Of a stretch of DNA of 64,000 nt, positions 11,472 to 14,863 are shown piece after piece (positions within the stretch are counted from its first letter, which is position 1; the number at the start of each line of letters is the position of its first letter). Below the pieces are notes generated by a model, which had not been told where the DNA came from, searched no databases, and was given only the letters and a program-made list of their open reading frames with translations. The position numbers and the translations under genes are program-made. The stretch is from Oceanicaulis alexandrii DSM 11625. Its GTDB lineage: Bacteria; Pseudomonadota; Alphaproteobacteria; Caulobacterales; Maricaulaceae. The DNA is taken from positions 1,612,001 through 1,676,000 of the forward strand of contig NZ_ATUP01000001.1 of assembly GCF_000420265.1 (NCBI RefSeq), written 5' to 3'.

Positions 11472-12743
11472 CTAGAGGTGCAGGCTGTCGCCGCGCAGCA
11501 GCGCCGGCAGATCGCCCACTTCGCCACCTGCCGTACGCATGAAAAAGCGTCGGGCGACGGGGATCTGATCCACGATGGACAGACCCAGCCCTCGGGCAGC
11601 CCTTATCGTGCTGTGATCATTGGAGAACAGCCAGGTGAACAGGTGCGCGCCCAGCCCGACCGCGACAGAATCCGTTCGCCGCCAGCGCTCATAGCGCTGC
11701 AAGGTCGCAGGGGCGCCCAGATCAAGCCCGGCGCGCTTGGCGTCCACCAGCACATCGGCCAGAACCGCCGCATCGCGGATGCCCAGATTAAAGCCTTGTC
11801 CGGCGATGGGGTGAATGCCGCGGGCGGCGTCGCCCACCAGCGCCAGCCGGTCATCGGTGAAGCGTTCCGCGAATTTCAGCGTCAGCGGATAGGTCCAGCG
11901 CGGGCTGGCGGGTTTCACCCAGCCGAGGAAATCGCCAAAGCGCGCCTCCAGCGCTTCCTGGAAGCCCGCGTCATCCATGTCTTTCAGGGCGTCCGCCGCC
12001 TTTGGCTTTTCACACCAGACCAGGCTCGAGCGATTGCCCGGCAGCGGCAGGATGGCGAACGGGCCTGTGGGCATGAAGCATTCATACGCCACACCCTCAT
12101 GGCTGTGTTCGTGCTCGACGGTCAGCACCACAGCCTTTTGATTGTAGGCGTAATCTGTGGTTCGCACGCCCGCCTGAGCGCGCAGACCGGAAAACTTGCC
12201 GTCACAGCCGACAATGAGGGGCGCTTCGAGCACCTCGCCGCTTTCCAACACCAGGCGATTGCGTCCCGGAGTGACGTCCGGCTCCATATGACTGGCGCGG
12301 GCGGGCGCAAACACGGTGAGACCAGCCTCTTCGGCGGCTTTGGCGAGCGCCACGCGCGTCCAGCGGTTCTCGGCCATATAGCCCAGAGCTTCGCCGTCAT
12401 CCTCGGGTGAGATTTCGCGACGGTCAAAATGCAGCTGGTCAGGGCCGGGGCCGCCGCGCTTGAGCCCGTCATAGGGACGGCCATCCACGACCAAGATGTC
12501 TTCAATAGGCTGGACATGGTCTTTCAGATGCTGGCCGGCGCCGACCGCGTTCAGCATGCGATAGGAGGTGTAAGCCAGCGCCGAGGCGCGCCCGTCATGC
12601 TCCGGCGTTACGTGCTCAGACAGCGCCATCGCATCAATGACCGCCACTGCCAGCCCGGCTTTATGCAGGGCCAGCGCCAGGGTCAGACCGGCGAGCCCGC
12701 CGCCGGAAATCACCACATCGCCAGAAAAGATCGGTTTGCTCAT
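11472..12743 (-). CDS. UbiH/UbiF/Coq6-family FAD-dependent hydroxylase
   Basis: A 423-residue flavoprotein monooxygenase of the ubiquinone-ring hydroxylase group. It has the N-terminal GGGLAGLTLALAL FAD site, DGRASAL (the family's substrate/FAD loop), and the second FAD motif GDAARGIHPIAGQGFNLGIRD about residues 290-310. It most likely hydroxylates a polyprenyl-phenol intermediate of ubiquinone. UbiH, UbiF, UbiI and UbiL cannot be told apart safely by eye. It lies 57 bases downstream of the ChrR-like gene on the same strand and could be read through from it. Confidence 0.9.
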   Translation of the reverse strand: MSKPIFSGDVVISGGGLAGLTLALALHKAGLAVAVIDAMALSEHVTPEHDGRASALAYTSYRMLNAVGAGQHLKDHVQPIEDILVVDGRPYDGLKRGGPGPDQLHFDRREISPEDDGEALGYMAENRWTRVALAKAAEEAGLTVFAPARASHMEPDVTPGRNRLVLESGEVLEAPLIVGCDGKFSGLRAQAGVRTTDYAYNQKAVVLTVEHEHSHEGVAYECFMPTGPFAILPLPGNRSSLVWCEKPKAADALKDMDDAGFQEALEARFGDFLGWVKPASPRWTYPLTLKFAERFTDDRLALVGDAARGIHPIAGQGFNLGIRDAAVLADVLVDAKRAGLDLGAPATLQRYERWRRTDSVAVGLGAHLFTWLFSNDHSTIRAARGLGLSIVDQIPVARRFFMRTAGGEVGDLPALLRGDSLHL

Positions 12744-12800: not shown

Positions 12801-13499
12801 TTAGCGGCTCAGTGCGCGCTGAATCCAGCCCAGGGCGCCGGTAAAGGCGAGCGGGCCGTCGGTGACAGCGAGCACGATACAGACCTCGCCTTCGTCGGCG
12901 ATCGGTTTGTGGATCGTGTCGGGATTGGCCATACACACATCGCCGGGGGCATAGCTGCCGCGCCCGTCCGAGAAACCGCCGGACAGAACGAGCGTGAATT
13001 CCGTGCCGTCATGGCCGTGATGGGGGACGCCGCGACCCGGTTCGATGCGGATCAGCTCGGCTTTCGCGCCGTCTTCGGTCATCAGCGGCATGGTGCGGAC
13101 GCCGGGGCCGGCGAAAGACCAGCCGCCAGCTTCCAGCGCCAGATCGCGGACGGAGCCCGGCAGATCCAGCAGTTCATCAATCGCCTGGCCGGCCTTCTGG
13201 GCGGCGTTGCGTGAGGTTTCAGACCCGGTGCGGGCGTTGAAACGCGCCGGACCGGCTTCGCCCAGACCCGCTTCTTCGGTGTCGATGATGTCAAACAGGG
13301 TCGCCAGAGCATTCGGCGCCATTTCGGCGGGCGCTTCGCTTTCCAGCAGGACGCCGGCGGCGGCCTCGACCGTTTGACGGGCGCGTGCGACCTCGGCGTT
13401 CACAGCCGATTGCGCGTCCAGCAGCAAGCGCATCGGACCCGAAAGGGCGCCCGAAGCGTAAGCGGCGTAAATCTCGTCACCCAGCGGATGGTTGGTCAT
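12801..13499 (-). CDS. ChrR-like cupin anti-sigma factor with degenerate zinc site
   Basis: This 232-residue protein has the two-domain ChrR layout: an N-terminal anti-sigma domain (about 1-100) and a C-terminal cupin (about 130-230). In Rhodobacter ChrR the first domain binds zinc through His6, His31, Cys35 and Cys38; at the same spacing here are Gln30, Asn34 and Val37, and only His4 remains. The cupin metal site is intact with the exact ChrR spacing (His161, His163, Glu167, His197). It follows its sigma-factor gene by 105 bases, longer than usual for such pairs. By family knowledge it would hold the sigma factor inactive until singlet oxygen or peroxide is sensed. Confidence 0.85.
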   Translation of the reverse strand: MTNHPLGDEIYAAYASGALSGPMRLLLDAQSAVNAEVARARQTVEAAAGVLLESEAPAEMAPNALATLFDIIDTEEAGLGEAGPARFNARTGSETSRNAAQKAGQAIDELLDLPGSVRDLALEAGGWSFAGPGVRTMPLMTEDGAKAELIRIEPGRGVPHHGHDGTEFTLVLSGGFSDGRGSYAPGDVCMANPDTIHKPIADEGEVCIVLAVTDGPLAFTGALGWIQRALSR

Positions 13500-13604
13500 G
13501 GTCTTCTTCTAAGTCGGCGTCTGGTACAGCGTGGCGGATATTGATCAGTTCAGTCTGACGTCAAGTGACAGGGCGTTTTTTAGTACGGATGCGTGCATTA
13601 TTTC

Positions 13605-14186
13605 TTACAAGGTTTCAGAATCAAGCACCCGCCTGAGCTTGTCGAAAGCCAGCCTGAGCCTTGATTTAACAGTGCCTAGCGGCATGCCGAGCTGATCGGC
13701 GATGTCGCGGTGAGACAAGCCGTCAAAAAACGCCAGACGCAGCAGCGCCACCTGTTCGTCGGGCAAGTCTAGCATGGCTTCACGCACCCGGTCATCGCGA
13801 TCATTTTCATGAACGGCGTCGTCGGGGGGCTGGATGTCCGGCGGGCGAAGGCTGGGATCCTCACCGTCAAGCGCGGGCTTGTTGGCCTGGCGCGCCGCGT
13901 CGATGCGCCGATTGCGCGCGATGCGGAAAATCCAGGTGGAGGCGGAGGCCTGATCGGGATCGAACTGTTCGGCCTTGCGCCAGACCGTCAGCATGATCTC
14001 TTGCGCCAGCTCTTCAGCCAGGCTGTCATGGGCGTTCAGGCGCAGCAGATAGGCTTTGACCCGCGGCGCATAGAAATTGAACAGCGCCGCGAACGCCTGC
14101 CGATCACGTTGTGCGGTGGCCAGCACAAGCGAGTTCAGGGTCGCACGATCCGGCTTTGCGCCAGTGGAAAAAGGGGCGTCAGGCAA
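13605..14186 (-). CDS. ECF sigma factor, RpoE/ECF11-like, partner of the ChrR-like gene
   Basis: A 193-residue group IV sigma factor. Region 2 is seen at about 30-100 (AFAALFNFYAPRVKAYLLRL, then AEELAQEIMLTVWRKAEQFDP, then TWIFRIARNRRID) and region 4 at about 135-190 (LPDEQVALLRLAFFDGLSHRDIADQLGMPLGTVKSRLRLAFDKLR). Resemblance and the ChrR neighbour point to the ECF11 group that controls photooxidative stress genes. No clear ECF11 promoter was found upstream. It is divergent from the IalB-family gene. Confidence 0.92.
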   Translation of the reverse strand: MPDAPFSTGAKPDRATLNSLVLATAQRDRQAFAALFNFYAPRVKAYLLRLNAHDSLAEELAQEIMLTVWRKAEQFDPDQASASTWIFRIARNRRIDAARQANKPALDGEDPSLRPPDIQPPDDAVHENDRDDRVREAMLDLPDEQVALLRLAFFDGLSHRDIADQLGMPLGTVKSRLRLAFDKLRRVLDSETL

Positions 14187-14353
14187 GTTTCACCCTTGAA
14201 GCTCGTTGCAGATCACTCTCACATCCGCACACATGACGATCAAGCCAGATCATGCCTTGAAACCGCCGTCTCAGACCGCTTTAAACGGGAATACAGACCG
14301 GCGCCAGCCGATCTTGCTTGCGTCAAACCGCTCATATCTGAATGGAAATCCCC

Positions 14354-14863
14354 ATGCGCGTTCTATTTGCCAGCCTGTGTCTGACCATCGCCGCACTGTC
14401 GCCTGTGCAAGCGCAGGAGGCGTCAGAACCTGAGTTTCAGGGCGCGCATCGCGACTGGCGCGTGTTCACGCGCGGTTCGGCCGAGGGTCAGGTCTGTTAT
14501 GCGCTCAGCCGCCCGCAAGAGGCTTTGCCCGCCAATGTGGACCATGGCGAGGTGTTCTTCCTGGTGGCGAGCTGGCGCAGCGGCGCCGCGGAGAACCAGC
14601 CCAGCTTCCTGGCCGGGTACGCCCTGCGTCCTGACAGCCCGCCGCGCGTGCGAGTGGGTTCGGACCGGTTTGAGATGTTCGTTTCCGAGCAGGAAGGGTT
14701 TCTGGAAGAGCCGGGCGAGGAGAGCCAGCTTGTGCGCGCGATGCGACGGGGCTCTGATATGCGGGTCGAGGCCACCAGCGCTCGCGGCACCGCCACCGCC
14801 TATACGTTTTCACTTTTGGGGGTGACTGCGGCGCTGGAGCAAGTGGACGATCTGTGCGGCTAG
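14354..14863 (+). CDS. IalB-family secreted protein
   Basis: A 169-residue protein with an N-terminal signal peptide (MRVLFASLCLTIAALSPVQAQ, cleavage likely after AQA) and the invasion-associated locus B (IalB) domain: DWRVFTRG, CYALSRP, FLVASWRSG, then GSDRFEMFV and MRRGSDMRVEATSARGTATAYTFSL, closing with a C-terminal cysteine that may bond to the first. It is probably periplasmic; role unknown in free-living bacteria. The start at 14354 has GGAAA upstream; 14342 is an in-frame alternative. Confidence 0.8.
   Translation: MRVLFASLCLTIAALSPVQAQEASEPEFQGAHRDWRVFTRGSAEGQVCYALSRPQEALPANVDHGEVFFLVASWRSGAAENQPSFLAGYALRPDSPPRVRVGSDRFEMFVSEQEGFLEEPGEESQLVRAMRRGSDMRVEATSARGTATAYTFSLLGVTAALEQVDDLCG

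Follow-up and report, generated by a model that had tools for sequence, protein, structure and literature searches.

Zinc-site loss with cupin retention in a ChrR-type anti-sigma factor of Oceanicaulis alexandrii and its relatives

Inhibition by Rhodobacter ChrR reportedly requires zinc binding (PMC6852236). A ChrR-like protein of Oceanicaulis alexandrii DSM 11625 has lost the zinc-binding residues of its anti-sigma domain and has kept the metal site of its cupin domain, which raises the question of whether, and how, it still holds its sigma factor. The locus lies in a 64,000-nucleotide stretch of contig NZ_ATUP01000001.1 (hereafter the window, to which all coordinates refer unless stated otherwise). 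On its minus strand, an ECF sigma gene is followed by a 105-base gap and then by the gene for a 232-residue anti-sigma factor. The original prediction covered 12801-14186 and gave the same gap; the open reading frames, at 12801-13499 and 13605-14186, and their spacing were confirmed. The genes and the parts of the anti-sigma protein are as follows.

13605..14186, minus strand: ECF sigma factor gene, 193 residues, TTG start; cognate partner by position (PDB 2q1z_A)
12801..13499, minus strand: chrR-like anti-sigma factor gene, 232 residues (TIGR02451, Cupin_7; PDB 2z2s_B, E 6e-23)
13266..13499, minus strand: anti-sigma domain, residues 1-78, with four helices predicted by AlphaFold2 (9-16, 21-33, 35-54, 64-78)
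13485..13487, minus strand: Pro5, replacing zinc ligand His6 of ChrR (HMMER alignment, column counts)
13389..13412, minus strand: Q30-x3-N34-x2-V37, replacing H31-x3-C35-x2-C38 (alignment, column counts)
12804..13139, minus strand: cupin domain, residues 121-232, with metal ligands H161, H163, E167 and H197 intact

The anti-sigma protein scores 128.7 bits against TIGR02451, the model for ChrR family anti-sigma-E factors (cut-off 124.5; residues 7-225), and 51 bits against Pfam Cupin_7 (cut-off 27). Its closest solved structures in a PDB comparison are two Rhodobacter ChrR entries. The adjacent gene, 105 bases upstream, encodes an ECF sigma factor of the ChrR-partner type, the top PDB match of which is the sigma factor of the ChrR complex (2q1z_A, E 1e-42). 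Oceanicaulis provides the nearest named genomes, with anti-sigma identities of 84% and 83%. An AlphaFold2 model made from 12 sequences (mean pLDDT 69, falling below 50 at residues 160-162, which include one cupin ligand) resembles ChrR 2q1z_B over residues 3-214 (Z 18.3, rmsd 4.0, 179 aligned residues), a predicted likeness from a program that may already know that structure; a helix break falls at residue 34. H161, H163, E167 and H197 correspond to the His, His, Glu and His cupin ligands expected of TIGR02451 proteins and stand at ChrR spacing, as had been claimed.

The zinc site is a different matter. The HMMER alignment to 2z2s_B places Q30-x3-N34-x2-V37 opposite H31-x3-C35-x2-C38 of Rhodobacter ChrR, which confirms the substitutions originally proposed. 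The same proposal had kept His4 as the only remaining ligand, and here it was mistaken: H4 lies opposite ChrR His5, a non-ligand, and P5 lies opposite the true fourth ligand, His6. The published zinc motif is given as H-x24-H-x3-C-x2-C (PMC6432622); by this spacing the fourth ligand should stand 25 residues before Q30, again at Pro5. With P5, Q30, N34 and V37 at the ligand positions, zero zinc ligands remain in the anti-sigma domain, and the signature of ZAS proteins, H-x3-C-x2-C with an upstream fourth ligand, is absent from the window protein.

These substitutions extend well beyond one genome. The gene was found in all 15 genus genomes searched, each time with a sigma neighbour, and in these sigma-linked orthologues both cysteines are absent (15/15), Gln30 is invariant (15/15), position 34 is N or D, and position 37 is V, I or A. 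Both cysteines are also absent in named Oceanicaulis, Alkalicaulis and Marinicauda records. A wider set of relatives was assembled from TIGR02451 matches in the family, order, class and phylum, giving 339 distinct proteins of which 292 are sigma-linked. Many, though not all, of the listed matches were taken, by rank and for spread, and the fractions given here describe that sample; open reading frames shorter than 150 residues and identical proteins were excluded, and the matches left out include 12 full-length ones from outside the class. The cupin quartet reads HHEH in 337 of the 339 relatives (the exceptions are one HHDH and one HHAH), although sampling through TIGR02451 favours ChrR-like cupins and may therefore make the cupin look more conserved, and Cys loss rarer, than they are. 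Residue 207 in the cupin half, the counterpart of ChrR Cys187, is Cys in 127/128 sigma-linked proteins with neither zinc cysteine and in 163/163 proteins with both. In Rhodobacter, according to PMC6852236, neither the response to singlet oxygen nor that to organic peroxide depends on Cys187.

One or both zinc cysteines are missing in 137 of the 292 sigma-linked relatives. Their share is high in the family (67/76, two named Maricaulaceae records included) and in two other families, f2 (22/24), which is probably the Caulobacteraceae, and f3 (13/15); it is lower in f144 (4/11), f200 (2/20) and the rest of the class (29/116), and reaches 0/29 in the phylum outside the class. A metagenome-assembled genome, L043, was counted apart from the family groups and has both cysteines. 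The fourth ligand tends to disappear together with the cysteines in other relatives too, judging from the alignment column, where His stands in 162 of the 163 proteins with both cysteines vs 7 of the 176 without. Close kin of the type protein are affected as well: L170 has Rhodobacter ChrR as its top PDB match over nearly its whole length (2z2s_B, E 1e-59), and in its sequence Ser and Ala replace the two cysteines while both His are retained. Nine proteins (L064, L068, L073 and others) keep one of the two cysteines and are possible intermediates of loss.

The number of losses was estimated on quick maximum-likelihood trees plus one FastTree, all restricted to sigma-linked pairs; such trees cannot themselves show that sigma linkage persists after Cys loss. 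On a tree of 253 representatives, built from joined sigma and anti-sigma sequences with the ligand columns taken out, at least 17 state changes were required, or 15 when branches below 80 SH-aLRT were collapsed and 11 when those below 95 were collapsed; 50 label shuffles needed 68 or more. For an earlier set of 202 representatives, three trees required 16-17 changes, or 14-16 and 5-9 when branches below 80 and below 95, respectively, were collapsed. Over all trees the range is thus 14-17 at branch support of at least 80 and 5-11 at 95. The changes are best read as losses rather than reversals, because the sampled outgroup proteins all carry both cysteines. Zinc-site loss with the cupin kept, which might have seemed peculiar to this pair, is on these comparisons real, genus-wide and recurrent.

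The original prediction left three options for such a protein: zinc-free holding of its sigma factor, a different way of working, or loss of inhibition. Of these, the first is best supported and the last unlikely. Comparative sequence evidence makes it probable, in our view, that the window protein still works as a cytoplasmic anti-sigma factor of the ChrR type, with a zinc-free anti-sigma domain and with sensing through its cupin. Inhibition without zinc is favoured by purifying selection, by the sigma neighbour in 15/15 genus genomes, by the repeated loss of the cysteines, and by two Cys-less members of a curated equivalog family. Residues 2-52 have dN/dS of 0.13-0.16 among the three closest genomes and pN/pS of 0.27 over 15 genomes, values that indicate purifying selection on the first helices of the domain. 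Residues 53-78 (helix IV) are looser, with dN/dS of 0.04-0.27 in the close trio and pN/pS of 0.44 over 15 genomes.

The strongest hint of function is kinship with L334 and L336, two proteins without either cysteine that score 352 and 343 bits (cut-off 300) against NF051881, the curated NCBIfam equivalog "cadmium/peroxide/UV radiation responsive anti-sigma factor ChrR". Every cysteine of L334 is in the cupin half, and it has His at 140 and at 142, residues that were reportedly among those tested in a Caulobacter study. Judged by its name, the model probably stands for Caulobacter ChrR. Singlet oxygen, organic hydroperoxide, cadmium and UV-A are the reported triggers of the Caulobacter system (PMC3818230; PMC6852236), in which two conserved cysteines are described as important for cadmium (PMC3511200). 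The window protein scores 113.4 bits against NF051881, far from the cut-off of 300, so function would transfer by analogy only. Like L334 and L336, it lacks both zinc-site cysteines and keeps the cupin quartet; the replacing residues differ, being R and T in the f2/NF051881 type and N and V in the window protein, and the gap is -4 in 21/22 Cys-less pairs of f2 vs 105 in the window.

In the mechanism that we propose, packing alone would stabilise the three-helix core that holds sigma, much as it does in E. coli RseA. The old Cys38 position, now occupied by a small hydrophobic residue (A, V or I), would serve this packing, and N or D at the old Cys35 position may cap a helix in the window lineage. 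Helix capping was rejected as a general rule, since it fits the window lineage (N, D) and fails for the f2 group (R, K); the old Cys35 column of the 128 sigma-linked proteins with neither cysteine holds N, S or D in 74 and R or K in 45. Stress, for example singlet oxygen or organic hydroperoxide, would be sensed at the cupin metal site, and sigma would then be released.

Inhibition could instead have been lost, leaving the protein as a relic or with another job and the sigma factor free or otherwise controlled. This would fit the lack of all four ligands reported as necessary in Rhodobacter ChrR, and Cys loss is commoner in ChrR-like proteins without a neighbouring sigma gene (39/47) than in sigma-linked ones (137/292), as relaxed selection would produce. 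It would also fit a second ChrR-like gene of the same genome, which has no sigma neighbour and is likewise Cys-less. We nevertheless judge lost inhibition improbable, given the selection on residues 2-52, a sigma gene that adjoins in every genus genome, and the two Cys-less proteins above the cut-off of a stress-responsive equivalog. The second protein (G000:C1:17580-18158; locus L002, 1171-1839) retains the cupin quartet and is encoded beside a gene that we take to be cysteine-synthase-like; similar second copies occur, among the matches listed, in 14 of the 15 genus genomes.

A second alternative is that other residues of the anti-sigma domain bind metal, in a shifted position or jointly with the cupin. 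A site built of His and acid side chains is possible: H4 is present in 15/15 genus orthologues, position 30 is H or Q in 111 of the 128 sigma-linked proteins with neither cysteine, and Asp is common at position 8 (69/95 Cys-less proteins). Position 8 is, however, mostly acidic in Cys-Cys proteins too, and no column of residues 2-69 gained a majority of His or Cys in the Cys-less proteins. A shifted site, named in the original prediction as a possible refutation, is contradicted by the absence of both H-x3-C-x2-C and C-x2-C from residues 1-78 in 128/128 of these sigma-linked proteins, 86 of which have no cysteine there at all; the commonest Cys column, position 29, has a cysteine in 21. We regard another metal site as very improbable. 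A sequencing or assembly error, the other refutation foreseen, is excluded, as the cysteines are missing from every genus genome and from the named Oceanicaulis, Alkalicaulis and Marinicauda records alike.

The preferred reading, a working anti-sigma factor with a zinc-free domain, leaves the spacing of the two genes to be considered. The gap and the promoter-like elements are as follows.

13500..13604, minus strand: gap between the sigma and anti-sigma genes, 105 bases
13538..13565, minus strand: promoter-like CTTGA-N19-ATAT before the anti-sigma gene (conserved spacing; candidate promoter)
14219..14243, minus strand: weaker promoter-like TTGAT-N15-TGTGA upstream of the sigma gene (genus conservation)

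The gap had been called long for such pairs, and it is: among 126 sigma-linked ChrRs with both cysteines the median is -4 and the 95th percentile 26. Gaps of 97-134 bases occur in 23 relatives, all of which carry TTGA-N19-AT(A/T)(T/C) at identical spacing (shuffle mean 0.62, maximum 3 over 500), a 23/23 that is not independent of discovery because the spacing was read from the alignment of those 23. In 20 of them the second box reads ATAT, the other 3 having ATTT or ATAC, and further conserved bases flank this box, CG before it and CCGC after it. The element is present in 39/46 pairs that lack the full Cys pair and have gaps above 40; beyond the first 23 relatives this amounts to 16/23, with relatedness among pairs remaining. 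It occurs in 1/155 Cys-Cys pairs and in 1/91 short-gap pairs without the full Cys pair, where the 125 bases scanned before the anti-sigma start are mostly sigma coding sequence. On the tree, 31 of 32 long-gap representatives fall within one group of 37 (support 96). Long-gap pairs with the element come from four families of the order.

This conserved spacing is most simply read as a promoter that serves only the anti-sigma gene, which would let that gene be transcribed separately from the sigma gene. A first trial pattern with another spacing had matched 1/23, no more than shuffles. The strict pattern matches the genome once and its reversed control twice, so its uniqueness says little, and a relaxed scan (3 mismatches) is too noisy to define a regulon, with 108 sites vs 61 in the reversed control. 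In a comparison meant as a test for a heat-shock promoter, the groES promoters of 14/15 genus genomes share the CTTGA part, differ in the second part and carry a repeat that is presumably of HrcA type. The element upstream of the sigma gene, a pattern picked from the alignment itself, is found in 15/15 genus genomes (shuffle maximum 4/15), lying 54-64 bases ahead of the start in 14, and in 0/8 of those outside the genus.

Two further genes accompany the pair. An IalB-like gene (window 14342-14863, plus strand) lies divergently upstream in 11/11 longer loci, and an FAD monooxygenase-like gene (window 11472-12743, minus strand) follows the anti-sigma gene in 6/11; the latter is a possible operon partner and the former a possible target. 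L043, with its zinc ligands intact and a computed gap of -20, shares two neighbours with the window: one is the IalB-like gene, at 31% identity, and the other, at 55%, is a gene that we take to be TrmH-like. The zinc form can thus occupy the same locus.

Among known systems, the window protein resembles Rhodobacter sphaeroides ChrR with its partner sigma-E (2Q1Z, 2Z2S) in domain order, predicted fold, cupin spacing and sigma factor; it differs in that its anti-sigma domain retains none of the four zinc ligands, in that about 20 extra residues (by numbering) separate the old zinc site from the cupin ligands, and in the 105-base gap with its own promoter-like element. E. coli RseA and M. tuberculosis RskA have no cupin and are membrane-bound, unlike the two-domain window protein, in which zinc was lost secondarily from a zinc-binding family. 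Like the window protein, RseA and RskA are described as having zinc-free anti-sigma domains (PMC7406223; PMC6852236), and one source gives the zinc motif as present in about 72% of soluble anti-sigma domains, hence absent from about 28% (PMC7406223). Streptomyces RsrA and other ZAS proteins share the anti-sigma domain fold. In RsrA the zinc cysteines reportedly act as a redox switch (PMC4960319), which is impossible in the window protein.

No statement about ChrRs without a zinc site was found in the literature searched, and the Caulobacter paper may contain one. One source treats a role of the zinc site in singlet-oxygen sensing by ChrR as a matter of debate and states that no data exclude it (PMC6432622). 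We tentatively advance a broader reading, which we hold to be somewhat on the doubtful side: a zinc-free class of ChrR, arisen repeatedly in the Alphaproteobacteria, would sense singlet oxygen by the cupin alone, the zinc site would be a structural staple rather than a sensor, and one lineage would have gained a fixed-geometry anti-sigma promoter, read by a non-housekeeping sigma factor, that uncouples the supply of anti-sigma from that of sigma. Surveys for cytoplasmic anti-sigma factors that are keyed on H-x3-C-x2-C may miss many ChrRs; in the present sample 137 of the 292 sigma-linked proteins lack one or both cysteines. ChrRs that naturally lack a zinc site are ready test proteins for the debate on zinc-site sensing: should they prove both to inhibit sigma and to react to singlet oxygen, a general sensing role of the zinc site would be ruled out.
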